From Saccharomycopsis phalli (taxonomy: Eukaryota; Ascomycota; Saccharomycetes; Ascoideales; Saccharomycopsidaceae), in NCBI GenBank assembly GCA_020342235.1, contig CP073212.1:1798001-1862000 (forward strand): a stretch of DNA of 64,000 bases. The letters are read 5' to 3'. Position numbers and translations under genes: made by a program. Shown here piece by piece: positions 54,469 to 63,774 of the stretch (its first letter is position 1; each line of letters begins with the position of its first letter). Under the pieces are notes generated by a model, which had not been told where the DNA came from, did no database searches, and saw nothing but the letters and a program-made list of their open reading frames with translations.

Positions 54469-56504
54469 ATGGGACTTCTGTAAGTGCCTTGTTGTGTCTT
54501 CCGACGCCTACTAACCGCAGTTCTCGAGGCTCTGCCTTTCGATTCCCGGACAACGAGCCGTATATTGCGCGGGTGCACTCCCGAGGAATCACCCACATTT
54601 TGCAAGCATATCGCGACAACGTCGCCAGATCAGACGCAACGTTCTTCTGGGGCGACGAGATCGAGTACATGTTGGTGAACTTCAACGACGCCGCGGAAAA
54701 AGCCACGCTTGACCTCGAGCACGACGGGCTTTTGGATGTTTTCGCCGAGACTAGCGCAACGTTCCAGCAGCAGTGCGTGCCGCGCAACATCAGTTTCCAC
54801 CCGGAATATGGCCGGTTTATGATCGAGGCCACGCCGCTCCGGCCGTACGATGGCGGCTCCTTGGCCGACTTCTTGTCTGTCGAGCCCAACATGAAGACTC
54901 GTCGCGAGACCATCGTCGAACATCTTGGCGACTCCCAGGTGGTGCCAATGACCATCACGTCGTTCCCAATGATGGGCGTCGAGGGATTCACCACAAAACA
55001 GTACCCTGTCCGCGGTGCCGCGTCCCACTCGTTGTTTCTCCCCGACGACATCATCAACAGACACGTCCGCTTCCCGACCTTGACCCAGAACATCCGCATG
55101 CGACGAGGCGCAAAAGTCGCCATCAACGTGCCGATTTTCCCCGACACGCACACCCAGCCGTTGGACCGCATCGACGTCAACATTCCTCGGCGCGATTTGT
55201 TCCCAGAGGACTCCGACGCGTTCCTTGGTGCTGCAGCTCCTGGCCACATCTACATGGACTCCATGGGGTTTGGCATGGGCTGCTCGTGTCTCCAGGTGAC
55301 AATGCAGGCCCCCGGTATCGACGACGCACGGTACTTGTACGATGCTCTTGTTCCATTGACCCCGATCTTGCTCTGTGTGTCGGCCGCAGCTCCAATCTTC
55401 AAGGGCACTTTGGCCGACCAAGATGTCCGCTGGAACGTCATTGCTGCCGCTGTCGACGACCGGACCCCGATAGAACGCAGCGTTGAGCCATTGAAGGGCC
55501 ATTTGGCTCATGGAGGTACCGATCCAGGCCGAAACTTGGCCAGAATCCGCAAGTCACGGTACGACTCCGTCGACATGTACCTCGGGGATTATGACTCCCA
55601 GAGCAAAACTTTCCGCCGGTTCTGCCCCGAGTATAACGACTTGGACGTGGAAATCAACGACACGGTGTACGAGCGATTACGTGGTGACATGGACGACACG
55701 TTGGCACGGCATTTCGGCCACTTGTTTATCCGGGACTCGTTGGTGTTGTTTCTGGAGATTGTCGACAAGGACTCGCAGGAGAACGACGAGGACCATTTCC
55801 AGAACATCCAGTCGACCAACTGGCAGACGTTGCGCTTCAAACCAGCAGAAAAGACCTCGGGGCCTGGCTGGAGAGTCGAGTTCCGTCCAATGGAGATCCA
55901 GGTGACGGACTTTGAGAATGCCGCGTACTCGGTGTTTATTGTGTTGGTGGCCAGATCTGTGTTGAAGTACCGGCCGAATTTCTATATTCCAATGTCGTTG
56001 GTGGACGAGAACATGGGCACGGCGCATTTACGGGACGGGGTGAAGAAGGAGTATTGGTTTAGAGGGGACGAATGTGGGGGAGTTGATGGTGCCAATGGGA
56101 CTTCCAATGGGACTTCCAATGGGACTTCCAATGGAACTGTTGATGGTACCAACGGTCATGGCACCAATGGTCATGGTACAACTCCTTGGAAGAAATACAC
56201 AGTAAATGAAATCATCAATGGCCAAATCATTCCTATGGTCAAACGGTACGTAAAAGAAGAGCTTGGAGAAAGCGACAAGTTGGATTCGTACATTGAGTTG
56301 ATTTCCAAACGAGCGTCTGGCGAGTTGCCAACGGCAGCACGGTTTATCCGGGACTTTGTCACTGGGAACCCCGAGTATAAGCACGATTCGCTCATTGGGC
56401 AGCGACTCAACTACGAGTTGTTGAAGAAGCTTGAAAAGGTTCAACAATTGGACGGGGAGTCGTTGAGAGATTTTTTTGGTAGTATGGCAGAGAAGGTGGA
56501 ATAG
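54469..56504 (+). CDS. GSH1: Glutamate-cysteine ligase, first step of glutathione synthesis (one intron)
   Basis: Exons 54469-54479 (11 nt) and 54521-56504 give 664 residues (S. cerevisiae Gsh1 is 678). Joins glutamate and cysteine with ATP in the cytosol; rate-limiting for glutathione. The tiny first exon encodes MGLL, the start seen in relatives (MGLLSLG), and splicing leads into SRGSAFRFPDNEPYIARVHSRGITHIL. Catalytic and substrate motifs are intact: FFWGDEIEYMLV, FHPEYGRFMIEATPLRPY, MDSMGFGMGCSCLQVTMQ, IQSTNWQTLRFKPAEKTSGPGWRVEFRPMEIQ. An odd NGTSNGTSNGT/NGHGTNGHGT insert of about 35 residues (bases 56080-56180) lies in a surface loop before TPWKKYTVNEIINGQI, encoded by a 12-bp repeat. The open frame upstream of 54469 is not coding. 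Confidence 0.95.
54480..54520 (+). other. 41-nt spliceosomal intron in GSH1
   Basis: Donor GTAAGT, perfect TACTAAC branch site ending at 54515, acceptor GCAG ending at 54520. It follows an 11-nt coding exon. Confidence 0.93.
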
Positions 56505-58255
56505 ATTAATATTGTATGAATGTAGGCAGGGAGATTTAAGAATGGCGAGTAACACACAAAATGGCGAGTAACACACAGAATGGCGAGTAAAAACTTTGGC
56601 AAAAATGGCAGAGTAAACACTTGAAACAGAATGTGGGAGTAACCATGTTAGTAGAGATGGTAGAGTAACCATGTTAGTAGAGATGGTAGAGTAACCATGT
56701 TAGTAGAGATGGTAGAGTAACCACTTGAAACAGAAAGATGGGAGTAACCACTTGAGTCAGAATGTGAGAGCAACCACTTGAGACAGGCTGTATAACCAGG
56801 GTACCAGTTGGAATGGCCAAATATATTCGCTACACTACATAAAGACAAGAGAAAATCTCACAGGCCAACGCTACTATAAATCAAACTACAAATGACCAAT
56901 TGACAGCTGTTGGGACCAAACCACGTCAATAGTGCATTGGGTAATGTAGTCCGATGACATGGAAGGATAGTCATTTCGTATTGTTGTGGAAATAAAATCG
57001 GGCCCGAGGACCAGGAGCAGACACTAGGCTGTGGGTGCATGGGGCCGCGATTCAGGAGCGGGTATTTTTAGCATGAGCTACAACGGTGATTGAATAGACG
57101 AGCATGATAATAGGTGAGTAAGAAAATAGACGAGTAAGAAAATAGACGAGTAAGAAAATAGACGAGCATGAGAGAGAAAGAATAAATGAATAAAGGATAA
57201 TGAATCAAGGATAATGAACAAAGGATAGATGAAAGGAAAGTAGGAGGAGCGTGAGGAAGAGGTACAGGAAAAGGTGCAGGAAAATTGGTATAATAGAGAG
57301 TAAAGGTGGATGAAAAGATGGTGTAAATATAGGATGAATATAGGGTGAATATAAGATGAATATAGGTGAATATTGTGTAAAGTAATGTAAATATAGTGTA
57401 TAGTGTAAATATAGTGTATAGTGTAAATATAGTGTATAGTGTAAATATAGTGTATATTGTAAATATAGTGTATATTGTAAATATAGTGTATAGTGTAATA
57501 TAGTGTATAGTGTAAATATAGTGTATATTGTAAATATAGTGTATATTGTAAATATAGTGTATAGTGTACGTATAGTGTAGAGAAAGTATAGAGATCGCAT
57601 AGACAAAGTATAGAGATCGCACAAGTGTAGATAACACAGGGTAAATTGTGCAATAGAATACAGATAGATCGGGCAAGATACAGGAAAAAAGTGCCAAGAG
57701 CAGCTGAAAAGACAGCATACTATTCGGTACAGACGATCTTCTATATGCAAACCAATGTTTCTTTCCACTAGATTGAGCAATATGGGAATGTAAATCGTAT
57801 TGAGGTGCCGTGGCAAACGGACACTAAGCCTGTTTTACTAGATTGGATATGGGCCTTGGGGATGGTAATGGGGTAACGATCTGACTAGTGAGATTGTATT
57901 TACAATGGCATGTGTTGGACAAGACTAGTGCTGTGATAGTGTGGTTGCAATCAGCTAGTGTGGTTGCAATCGGCTAGTGAGATTGGCCATTGCCGATTAA
58001 CCACCAGGAGTCCTTGGATATTGCCATTTCATTGAATATCACTATTGCCTGCCATTTCATTGAATATCACTATTGCCTGCCATTTCATTGATATACACAA
58101 TCTACCGAGCGTTGTTCAATCCCACAATCTAGGAGTCTCAAGTACTCATGCATGCACATCAACATGATGGATTTGAAACACTGGATTACCACGCACACTG
58201 GAGCTTGGATCGTGAAATATATATAAGACACACAGTGGTTCGACAGCCCCACAGC
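56505..58255. repeat. 1.75-kb upstream region of the velvet gene, repeat-rich
   Basis: 56530-56590 repeats AATGGCGAGTAACACACA; 56640-56720 is a 28-bp repeat (GTAACCATGTTAGTAGAGAT); 57110-57170 repeats GAGTAAGAAAATAGAC; 57340-57590 is an 18-bp satellite TAGTGTAAATATAGTGTA with length variants; 57930-57980 repeats GTGTGGTTGCAATC; 58020-58090 repeats TGCCATTTCATTGAATATCA. 56800-56840 slightly resembles the LTR end (CCAGTTGGAATGGCCAAATA). No gene seen. Such a long upstream region fits a gene with complex regulation. Confidence 0.75.
58218..58226 (+). promoter_or_regulatory. TATA box of the velvet gene
   Basis: TATATATAA, 30 bp before the ATG at 58256. It lies inside the longer open frame, which argues against the upstream ATG at 58148. 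Confidence 0.55.
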
Positions 58256-59890
58256 ATGGTCAAATTTCTCAAGCACTCAGTCCAGCCATTGGACAAAAAG
58301 GACATTGCCCAGGTCCGTGCCGACTTGTCGTTGAACGTGGTGCAACAACCGGTCAAGGCACGTGTGGCCGGCCGCAAGCAAACCAGAAACTCCTCTAGGC
58401 GACTTGTCGACCCGCAACCAGTGATTGAAATCAGGCTCCACGACCTGAACAAGAATATCATCGACCACTCGCTCAGCATGTTCTTTGTCCGGGCCACAAT
58501 CGAGTGTATTGGCCTGAACGACAAGCTCTCCTTCTTCCAGAAGCAGCGCAAGTCCCGCTACTACGAGCCTCTGAAGGATGCCGTGGACAACTGCGATGAG
58601 GAAGAAGTCCTCCGAGGAACAACCACCGTCAGTGCCCAGTTCTACAGAGGAAGCCCCTACGTCGCTTGTGCGGTGTTTGACAACTTGTCGGTGCGCTACA
58701 AGGGCAGCTACAGGCTCAGATTCGACTTGTACGAGGTCCAGTCGCTCTCGCCAAACGGCTCCCTTGCTCCCCAGATTATAAAGTGGGAAAAGTCCACCCG
58801 TTACTCCAACGTGTTCACCGTGTACACCGATGCCGCTTTTGACGGTCTTGAGGCTAGTCCCGAGTTGAACAACGAGTTGAAAAAGGCAGGGTGCAAGATC
58901 CGGGCCCGCAAACAACGATCCATGCTCAATGACGCTTTCAAAGTCACCAAGGCCGCCAACCATTTTGGACTCGACCGCGACTTGTTCAAGCGGCCGAATA
59001 GTGCCATGGACTTTTCCATGATGAACATGCACCTGCAAATGGGACTCAGCATCAAACGGCCGCAGTCAGCTTTGCCTCAGCTAATCACCAGCAACAACAG
59101 ACTCGATTACGATATGCTCCGCTCGGGCTCGGAGTACTCCTCGTCTCCAATTGAACACCCACAGCCTCGACGGCCGTTTTCAGCCTCCACCAACCAGGGA
59201 TTTGACATGGGGTACAAGAAGCCAGATTATGGCATGAAGTATGGTGTCAAGTATGACATGAAGCAAGACTATGGTATGAAGCAAGACTATGGTATGAAGC
59301 AAGACTATGGTATGAATCAAGACTTTGGCATGAATCAAGACTTTGGCATAAAACAAAACTTTAGCATGCGGTCAGACTTTGGCATGAAATTGGAGTATGG
59401 CATCAAGCAAGAATATGCCGTCAAGCCAGACTACGCCGTCAAGCCTCAATTCGACTTGAAACCAGAATTCATCAGCGAAATCCAGAAACAAGACTCATTC
59501 AAGCCAAACGACGACTTTGTCTCCCCAGTCGTATACCCAAACGAGTTCCAAATCAACTTTGCCGACCAGTACAGTGACCAGTACACCGCAGCAAACTTGA
59601 TCGTCACCAGCAGCCAAACAAACAGCAGTCCGCTCTCCAACCAAGTTGTTGCTGCCGAGTTTGAAAAACCAGACGGTGTCTATGATATCCCGCGCTCGTT
59701 GGAACCAATCCCAGTGTCATGGGAATTGGGCAACCAGTACCAGCAACCTGCTCCAACAGAACAGAAAGCTCCCCCGGCACCAGAGCCACAACCTCTGCAA
59801 GACTACAGCCAGGACATTCAGTCCGAGTTGTTGAATGACATTTACCAGCAGACGGACATGATGTTGTTGCGCCAAAACTTTCAGATTTAG
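58256..59890 (+). CDS. Velvet-family transcription regulator (VosA/VelB/Ryp2-3 type)
   Basis: 544 residues from the ATG at 58256, chosen over an in-frame ATG at 58148 because a TATATATAA box lies between them. Velvet proteins are fungal DNA-binding regulators of development, sporulation and secondary metabolism with an Rel-like fold. The domain covers about 22-221: the entry motif LNVVQQPVKARVAG...RRLVDPQPVIEIRL (relatives: VRQQP..AR..G..DRRPIDPPPIVQL), then VFDNLSVRYKGSYRLRFDLYEV, FTVYTDAAFDGL and KKAGCKIRARKQRS, each a hallmark. There is no large insert as in VelB, so it is nearer VosA/VelC by layout. A second conserved-looking segment (NHFGLDRDLFKRPNSAMDF...IKRPQSALPQL) follows, then an eight-residue repeat YGMKQDYG (about 320-400) and a Gln/Pro-rich end that could be an activation domain. 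Expected location is the nucleus. Confidence 0.9.
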   Translation: MVKFLKHSVQPLDKKDIAQVRADLSLNVVQQPVKARVAGRKQTRNSSRRLVDPQPVIEIRLHDLNKNIIDHSLSMFFVRATIECIGLNDKLSFFQKQRKSRYYEPLKDAVDNCDEEEVLRGTTTVSAQFYRGSPYVACAVFDNLSVRYKGSYRLRFDLYEVQSLSPNGSLAPQIIKWEKSTRYSNVFTVYTDAAFDGLEASPELNNELKKAGCKIRARKQRSMLNDAFKVTKAANHFGLDRDLFKRPNSAMDFSMMNMHLQMGLSIKRPQSALPQLITSNNRLDYDMLRSGSEYSSSPIEHPQPRRPFSASTNQGFDMGYKKPDYGMKYGVKYDMKQDYGMKQDYGMKQDYGMNQDFGMNQDFGIKQNFSMRSDFGMKLEYGIKQEYAVKPDYAVKPQFDLKPEFISEIQKQDSFKPNDDFVSPVVYPNEFQINFADQYSDQYTAANLIVTSSQTNSSPLSNQVVAAEFEKPDGVYDIPRSLEPIPVSWELGNQYQQPAPTEQKAPPAPEPQPLQDYSQDIQSELLNDIYQQTDMMLLRQNFQI

Positions 59891-61908: not shown

Positions 61909-63774
61909 TTAATTATTCAATGTAAAGCTATTGTTATTCTGGACAAACGTCGCAGCGTTCGTGCCAAAACTGTCCTCCTGTGCACCAAGTGGTGGCGGCG
62001 ACACAGTATCCTTGATGGAGCTTGTTCGTTTCCCCACATGGATGTTCTGGTACGTTCCATCGTTCATGACGACGTACTCCACTGGTGGGCCCTGAGAGCC
62101 GTTTCCCTGATGCTGCTGGGGAAAGTTCTGGCTGGAGATGGTGGCCTGTCCGCTATTTGGCACGTATGCTCCTCCGTTCATGGACATCAGTCTGTTGACA
62201 AGGATCTGGTTGCCAGACTGGCTATTGTTTGCAATACTGTAGCTCCGCTGAATGTTGGTCGGAGAGCTGTAGAACGTCTGCTGCTGTGGAATGTAGCTGA
62301 TGGACCGTTGGTGTCTGGAATATTCTGCGGCTAGACCCGGTTCTTCTGGGACTGGGGCCGATGTCATTGACAGAACGGGATCCTGCTTTTGCAAACTGGT
62401 GCGGGAGATGTTTGTCGACTGGAACGACGAGCGACGGCCCTGGATCTCCAACTTCTCAGCAATGTAGTGTGAGCGAGCTTCTGGTGTTGGGAGCTGGGTC
62501 AACTTCTTGATGTCGTTGTACCAGCTGATCATCAAGTCGTACGACTCAGCGCGGAAAACCCAGTTGTGTCCGCGGTGGATGATCCCGTTCTGCTTGGTGT
62601 GCAACACAAACTTGTGCCAGCTGTTTGGATTGGCGGCATCCTTCTTGGAGTGTTCTGCGACCTGGCAGTCGTCGAGCGAGAGCGACATGATCGGGTAAAT
62701 GTCCTTCTTGCGGTCGCCCGACTTGAACTCGTGGAGAAACGTCGGGGTGAGCACGTACCAGCTGCGGGAATACGACTTGAGGAACTTCAGCCGGCGTTCG
62801 AGGAATGACGCCCGGATTTCCAACGTGAGCGGGTCGTCAATGTACTTGTACGCAATGTCTGCAAACTTGCGGATCCGGAGCTCGGTATTGATGAACGTGT
62901 GGGGGTTCTGCTTGATGAACGCGTCCCACTCAAACTCGCCCGGCCTGGTGACAAATCCGGCATCAAGCTTGGGAATAAGCACGTTGAAAATCACCTGGCT
63001 CTCTTCGCCAATGAGCCGCGCGTAGATCTTGAGCGCGTTTTGGATCTCCATGACCACAAGCTTCTCCAACTCCTTGCCCGAGGTCTGAATGTTGAGAAAC
63101 GCCTCATGGAGATACTTCTCCTCGAGCAACTGCTGCTTGATCTGCCGGTCGAGGTATATCTTGGTGAGGTACGGGTCGTTTTTCGCCAGCAAGTTGTTGG
63201 CACTCTTGATCTGGTCAATCAGCCCGTAAAACGCAGTAAGATCGACCCTGGTCTGTGCAACCTCCTTGGCAATCGTGTTCTTGAAGTCGCTGCTCAAGTT
63301 CTTGATCTCCTTCACCTTCACCGACAAGTCCCGGCGCAAATCCTCCAACCGAGGAATCACATTCTGCGAAAGCTCCTTCAGGGTCCGGGTAGTATAGCTG
63401 CCCACTGTCTTGTGGAACTCGTTCAACGCAGCAGGAACATCGAGAATCAGACCATACCCAGCCGGCATAAATAGCTTCTTCATCGCCGCTACCTCATCCG
63501 CACTGTTCGGTACCGTCTGGTTGGGAGCCCCGGTGTCGACGATGGGGGCTCCTCCAAGCGGGAAATTGTTGGCTAGAGAGTGCTGGAGGCGCATCTGCTG
63601 CAACACAGACTCTTCATGGATGGCAATCACGTCCTTGAGATATAAAATCAAACCCTTGATGATGGCGCGCCAGGCGCCAAACCGCGAAGCAAGAACATCA
63701 GTGGGATTGGCGTTGGCAGGAAGTTGCTGGTACAACGGATTCCGGAAATCCTGCGTCGTGGTGGTGAGGGACAT
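61909..63774 (-). CDS. SLM1: Slm1/Slm2-type PH-domain protein, TORC2 effector
   Basis: 621 residues (S. cerevisiae Slm1 is 686, Slm2 656). Slm proteins bind PI(4,5)P2 at plasma-membrane eisosomes and carry signals from membrane stress and TORC2 to Ypk1 and actin. An F-BAR-like helical domain covers about 30-290 (ASRFGAWRAIIKGLILYLKDVIAIHEE... GLILDVPAALNEFHKTVGSYTTRTLKELS... EKYLHEAFLNIQTSGKELEKLVVMEIQNALKIYARL), followed by a PH domain at about 325-425 (RRLKFLKSYSRSWYVLTPTFLHEFKSGDRKKDIYPIMSLSLDDCQV... SWHKFVLHTKQNG...WVFRAESYDLMISWYNDIKKLTQLP). The rest is disordered and Ser/Gln/Asn-rich. I do not see an unambiguous calcineurin-docking PxIxIT motif at the C-terminus, which S. cerevisiae Slm1/2 have. 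Confidence 0.93.
   Translation of the reverse strand: MSLTTTTQDFRNPLYQQLPANANPTDVLASRFGAWRAIIKGLILYLKDVIAIHEESVLQQMRLQHSLANNFPLGGAPIVDTGAPNQTVPNSADEVAAMKKLFMPAGYGLILDVPAALNEFHKTVGSYTTRTLKELSQNVIPRLEDLRRDLSVKVKEIKNLSSDFKNTIAKEVAQTRVDLTAFYGLIDQIKSANNLLAKNDPYLTKIYLDRQIKQQLLEEKYLHEAFLNIQTSGKELEKLVVMEIQNALKIYARLIGEESQVIFNVLIPKLDAGFVTRPGEFEWDAFIKQNPHTFINTELRIRKFADIAYKYIDDPLTLEIRASFLERRLKFLKSYSRSWYVLTPTFLHEFKSGDRKKDIYPIMSLSLDDCQVAEHSKKDAANPNSWHKFVLHTKQNGIIHRGHNWVFRAESYDLMISWYNDIKKLTQLPTPEARSHYIAEKLEIQGRRSSFQSTNISRTSLQKQDPVLSMTSAPVPEEPGLAAEYSRHQRSISYIPQQQTFYSSPTNIQRSYSIANNSQSGNQILVNRLMSMNGGAYVPNSGQATISSQNFPQQHQGNGSQGPPVEYVVMNDGTYQNIHVGKRTSSIKDTVSPPPLGAQEDSFGTNAATFVQNNNSFTLNN

Follow-up and report, generated by a model that had tools for sequence, protein, structure and literature searches.

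We describe a gene of the velvet family of regulators in a 64,000-nucleotide window of a budding yeast genome; the window is the whole stretch of DNA analysed, positions below are window coordinates, and CTG is read as Ser unless stated. The gene probably codes for a velvet transcription factor that is functional, and it is among 13 velvet genes that would have been kept and multiplied in a yeast reading CUG as Ser, probably of the Saccharomycopsis type. This reading builds on the velvet domain itself, on paralogues in the same genome, on the selection pattern of the coding frame, and on the basic residues of loop A, the counterpart of a loop with which the Aspergillus protein VosA contacts DNA.

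A velvet domain in the window

Judged by its sequence, the window gene is a genuine velvet-type regulator, of the kind best known from moulds. The Pfam profile PF11754, for which the curated cut-off is 25 bits, matches the window protein at 88.6 bits (E 8.2e-25) in the standard code and at 89.4 bits (E 4.7e-25) with CTG as Ser. In a control run of 487 rows (frames of at least 60 amino acids), a profile of three PDB velvet chains gave 77 bits for the velvet frame, 5.9 for the next-best window frame and 1.1 for the best reversed decoy. Alignment with the VosA, VeA and VelB chains shows both the entry motif and the LSV(R/K)-G-(Y/F)RL core, and the motifs quoted in an initial annotation of this DNA are present and contain no CTG codon. 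That annotation had claimed a complete velvet domain in a budding yeast and had named PF11754 as a check on the translation; the score far above the cut-off, the clean control profile and the motifs in their places bear this out.

Among PDB entries, the best matches of the window protein are VeA (34.8 bits) and VosA (32.1 bits), and a profile of ten velvet domains from the genome itself finds three significant relatives, VelB (117.9 bits), VeA (102.4 bits) and VosA (99.5 bits). No VelC sequence is among the PDB matches. Two scans of a viral collection with velvet alignments confirmed no relative among the 12 and 48 stretches that fit a pattern.

On the forward strand the open frame runs from 58133 to a stop at 59890 and has two in-frame ATG codons, at 58148 (580 amino acids) and 58256 (544 amino acids). 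The start at 58256 looks the better of these two candidates because a paralogue, C1:727k (genes elsewhere in the genome are labelled by contig and position), likewise opens with MVKFLK. The features of the gene are as follows.

58256..59890, forward strand: velvet gene, 544 amino acids with CTG as Ser, stop counted in the coordinates; open frame, PF11754 at 89.4 bits, start common to the paralogue
58316..58948, forward strand: velvet domain, approximately residues 21-231 of 544, by alignment with the VosA, VeA and VelB chains and by Pfam
58373..58402, forward strand: loop A, approximately residues 40-49, counterpart by alignment of the VosA DNA-contact loop (K37, K39, R41, K42)
59252..59433, forward strand: in-frame tandem repeat in the C-terminal tail, 18-bp unit in 10.1 copies, encoding a hexapeptide of the YGMKQD kind

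A family of 13 velvet genes

The genome searched comprises 14.15 Mb in eight contigs. PF11754 gave 14 matches falling into 10 genes, all of them above the cut-off as whole frames (the weakest at 28.3 bits), and three more, C5:926k, C6:617k (72.9 bits) and C6:618k (65.3 bits), emerged when the C5:920k protein was the query. With CTG as Ser, PF11754 scores these last three at 43.3, 13.2 and 21.8 bits, respectively. The family amounts to 13 genes on four contigs, 11 over the Pfam cut-off and two divergent ones under it, and searches with the window protein and two further members found no additional velvet domains. Three weak matches in the search with the window protein (E 0.002 to 0.006) fall on its repeat tail. 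One of the three, at E 0.002, lies within the C6:617k frame, in the tail of that protein.

The window gene has a duplicate in C1:727k, with which it shares 62% amino acid identity. Over 231 codons the two differ at 33%, 20% and 55% of first, second and third codon positions, a pattern by which both are under constraint. The duplication is old, because 61% of 57 fourfold sites differ. A further member, C5:374k, is a VelB orthologue, matching the VelB chain at 181.1 bits and grouping with Aspergillus nidulans VelB at 100/99 in the tree presented below.

Two tandem clusters are present, one of C5:920k, 922k and 926k and the other of C6:617k and 618k. The trio (C5:920-928k) has REFY, RQFY or REYY in place of the KKFPG of other velvets, and the pair (C6:617-619k) consists of divergent velvet genes below the Pfam cut-off. 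Gene models made by eye for C5:388k and C6:1244k are consistent with an intron in each, matching in position and phase.

Genetic code and lineage

CUG appears to be translated as Ser in this genome, judging from the residues that CTG faces in alignments; another small residue such as Ala would be compatible as well. Four conserved window genes (CCR4, REV1, SIN3 and GSH1) were compared with yeast PDB chains in 12 alignment blocks chosen for holding CTG, to the exclusion of CTG-free blocks; two further PDB searches for this comparison gave no match. Of 15 aligned CTG sites, with those in gaps or beyond the printed alignments uncounted, one is paired with L, I, V, M or F; for the remaining Leu codons the figure is 94 of 109. 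Opposite the 15 CTG sites stand K (six), T, S and N (two each), and R, E and L (one each). In the window gene itself the CTG at residue 87 is opposite a Ser of the duplicate, which is Ser under the standard code too. Because CTG behaves as Ser here, five residues of the 544-residue protein probably change from Leu to Ser relative to the standard-code translation. Reading of CUG as Ser is reported for two yeast clades (PMC5951914; papers are cited here by PMC number, from excerpts). No transfer RNA (tRNA) with anticodon CAG was seen by ARAGORN in the window and 13 loci, among at least 64 tRNA places in the genome. Two adjacent low-scoring tRNA matches lie at C7:1518961-1519140, close to the contig end, and one of them is called tRNA-Leu(taa).

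A genome search with PF01747 gave no match to ATP sulfurylase, and for APS kinase there was one weak match (27 bits). These two results fit organic-sulfur auxotrophy; sulfate genes are described as lacking in three Saccharomycopsis species (PMC6508603), and the genus, in one species of which (S. schoenii) gene deletion is practised, is described as an organic-sulfur auxotroph (PMC11392346). Together with CUG read as Ser and the velvet expansion, the missing ATP sulfurylase match suggests that the yeast belongs to Saccharomycopsis or is closely related to it. As weak evidence on lineage, RPL3 of this genome scores 739.6 and 734.4 bits against chains 6uz7 and 5it7, both of K. lactis, followed by 723.5 and 723.3 bits against 7pzy (C. 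albicans) and 3j6x (S. cerevisiae).

Proposed mode of action

In the mechanism that we propose, the velvet domain at the N-terminus would adopt a Rel-like beta-sandwich fold, would dimerise with itself, with C1:727k (the duplicate) or with C5:374k (the VelB orthologue), and would use the basic loop A for DNA contact. The C-terminal tail, which is long, rich in repeats and has little in common with the tail of the duplicate, may be a flexible regulatory or activation region. The protein would act in the nucleus and, by analogy with the rest of the family, have a role in development or in the response to starvation.

Mutants of VosA show that K37, K39, R41 and K42 of loop A are important to its DNA binding (PMC3876986). 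Opposite these the window protein carries K, S, R and R, such that three of the four are basic, albeit in an alignment with uncertain gap placement. Its loop A exceeds that of VosA by three residues and holds further Arg residues at 40 and 44, and the loop A of the duplicate is likewise basic.

Several points weigh against the gene being a velvet factor of this kind. In the window pair (the window gene and its duplicate), DAAFDG takes the place of the KKFPG motif that precedes the last helix, and because of this alteration the dimer choice of the pair may differ from that of known velvets. The velvet fold rests on sequence only, because a structure model of residues 1-265 from the single sequence has low confidence (mean predicted local distance difference test score, pLDDT, 32.8). 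The count of 13 genes is a possible undercount: distant members may escape searches with PF11754 and single proteins. Lastly, inspection by eye for a LaeA motif in 12 of the 14 Methyltransf_23 matches of the genome brought no LaeA-like methyltransferase to light, which leaves the classical VeA-VelB-LaeA complex without support here.

The altered motif and loop A also bear on an alternative, namely that the window protein no longer touches DNA itself and instead modulates other velvets by dimerising with them. We consider this unlikely. DAAFDG, the lengthening of loop A, the non-basic residue aligned to K39, and the presence in the genome of a VelB orthologue would all suit such a partner, but loop A retains basic residues at the other three positions as well as the two additional Arg, and that of the duplicate is basic too.

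Relationship to VosA, VeA and VelB

Two trees were built, the first with 13 rows that include four of the seven divergent genes, and the second with 16 rows, namely the 13 domains of this genome and three PDB references (VosA, VeA and VelB). Clades were compared by p-values of the approximately unbiased test (p-AU), which are a guide only, most groups having been picked after the first tree and each reference class being represented by one sequence.

In the 16-row tree the window gene joins C1:727k at 100/99, and the joining of this pair with C5:388k and C6:1244k has moderate support, at 88/91 (not starred) and at 83/93 in the first tree. A split at 99/97 sets C8:42k, C5:67k, C5:920k, 922k and 926k, and C6:617k and 618k apart from the remaining nine rows. 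The window pair and the VelB pair were also recovered in the first tree, which splits the divergent genes at 99/98 and has three long end branches. A single clade of all own genes other than VelB is not excluded (p-AU 0.48, first tree), and the window pair with four divergent genes has a p-AU of 0.25 in the same tree.

Aspergillus VosA represses asexual development and is required for spore viability, and the initial annotation had labelled the window gene VosA-like. That the gene is a yeast orthologue of VosA, working as VosA does in Aspergillus, seems improbable to us. VosA is one of the two near-equal PDB matches, the four-gene clade with VosA is not rejected (p-AU 0.22 in the first tree and 0.10 in the second), and the window protein is without the long VelB insert. 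However, VeA scores slightly more, the p-AU for a clade of the window pair and VosA only is 0.019 in the first tree and 0.012 in the second, and in the 16-row tree VosA joins the VelB branch with support of 85/86 (not starred). The VosA-like label is not supported by these data. The window pair with VeA alone has a p-AU of 0.028 in both trees, and the four-gene clade with VeA one of 0.42 in the first and 0.31 in the second. A placement of the window pair with VelB is disfavoured (p-AU 0.023 with the two VelB rows, first tree); VelB pairs with C5:374k, and the long insert is absent. The tree suggested in the initial annotation, with these three classes as references, thus argues against the VelB class for the window gene and lends no support to a VosA grouping. 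The annotation had also pointed to the lack of a VelB-type insert, which is correct for the long insert, although a shorter extra stretch sits near the same place.

Compared with the individual reference proteins, the window protein resembles A. nidulans VosA (PDB 4n6q) in a velvet domain without the long insert and in a basic loop A, but differs in the three additional loop residues, in FDG for FPG, in the long repeat tail and in the lack of clade support. With VeA (PDB 9i2s) it shares the entry motif and the LSVR core, and VeA is the top PDB match by a small margin, although a clade of the pair with VeA alone has the low p-AU given above. A. nidulans VelB (PDB 4n6r) belongs to the same domain family, but the window protein does not have its long insert, and the VelB orthologue is the separate gene C5:374k.

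Origin of the family and earlier reports

With 13 velvet-family genes in the genome, a VelB orthologue among them, retention and duplication look likelier than transfer as the origin of the window gene. The initial annotation had offered either an ancestral gene or a transfer, and it is the former that these genes favour. That a filamentous fungus was the donor in a horizontal transfer is very improbable, given the 13 members on four contigs, the VelB orthologue and the old duplicate, together with reports of velvet genes in part of the Saccharomycotina, published in 2024 (PMC10845976), and of 12 in Saccharomycopsis fibuligera, published in 2016 (PMC5106798). The same two reports stand against the suggestion that yeasts have no velvets and that the gene opens new ground. 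We note that two papers call velvet absent in budding yeasts, one of them a 2026 review stating that velvet proteins are absent from Saccharomycotina (PMC13006574). Among the open-licence papers listed by literature searches, none was a functional study of a yeast velvet gene or of its targets.

S. fibuligera is like the present genome in having an expanded velvet family, and is a yeast of the CUG-Ser2 clade; in the excerpt its velvets are given as a count without classification. The velvets reported from Saccharomycotina (PMC10845976) share family and subphylum with the window gene. The window gene is thus an addition to known velvets, with velvets in some yeasts and a twelve-gene family already in print, and the size and shape of the present family are of more interest than the novelty of the gene, which is lower than first thought. 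Decay into a pseudogene is scarcely credible, since in spite of a repeat-full tail with little in common with that of the duplicate, 580 codons are open, the codon-position differences show constraint, and the domain score is strong.

Velvet proteins couple development to secondary metabolism in filamentous fungi. A tentative possibility is that the velvet branches particular to this lineage run a yeast-specific programme without LaeA, such as starvation-driven predation or hyphal growth. The branches that we have in mind, equally tentatively, are the window pair with its two relatives, and the fast-evolving seven-gene branch with its two tandem clusters and rebuilt C-terminal part. A yeast with 13 velvets, a VelB orthologue, a divergent tandem branch and no LaeA recognised as yet would allow the role of velvets outside the classical complex to be asked about.

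Neighbouring genes and repeats

The velvet gene lies between GSH1 and a gene for an Slm1-type protein, as the initial annotation had it, and tandem repeats were detected in the upstream region that it had described as repeat-filled. The neighbouring features are as follows.

54669..56504, forward strand: GSH1, upstream neighbour, counted from the frame's first ATG, although translation may begin farther 5'
57386..57579, no strand: upstream minisatellite, 18-bp unit in 10.8 copies
58022..58091, no strand: repeat, 28-bp unit in 2.5 copies, directly upstream of the velvet gene
61909..63774, reverse strand: Slm1-type BAR and PH protein, downstream neighbour (Pfam BAR_4, PH_20 and PH)

The GSH1 product matches glutamate-cysteine ligase in the PDB at 480.3 bits, from chain residue 54. 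Between GSH1 and the velvet gene, the interval 56541-57621 holds several different minisatellites with units of 11 to 52 bp. The guanine-plus-cytosine content is 45.6% in the window and 42.3% over approximately 94 kb of other stretches of the genome, two of which overlap slightly.
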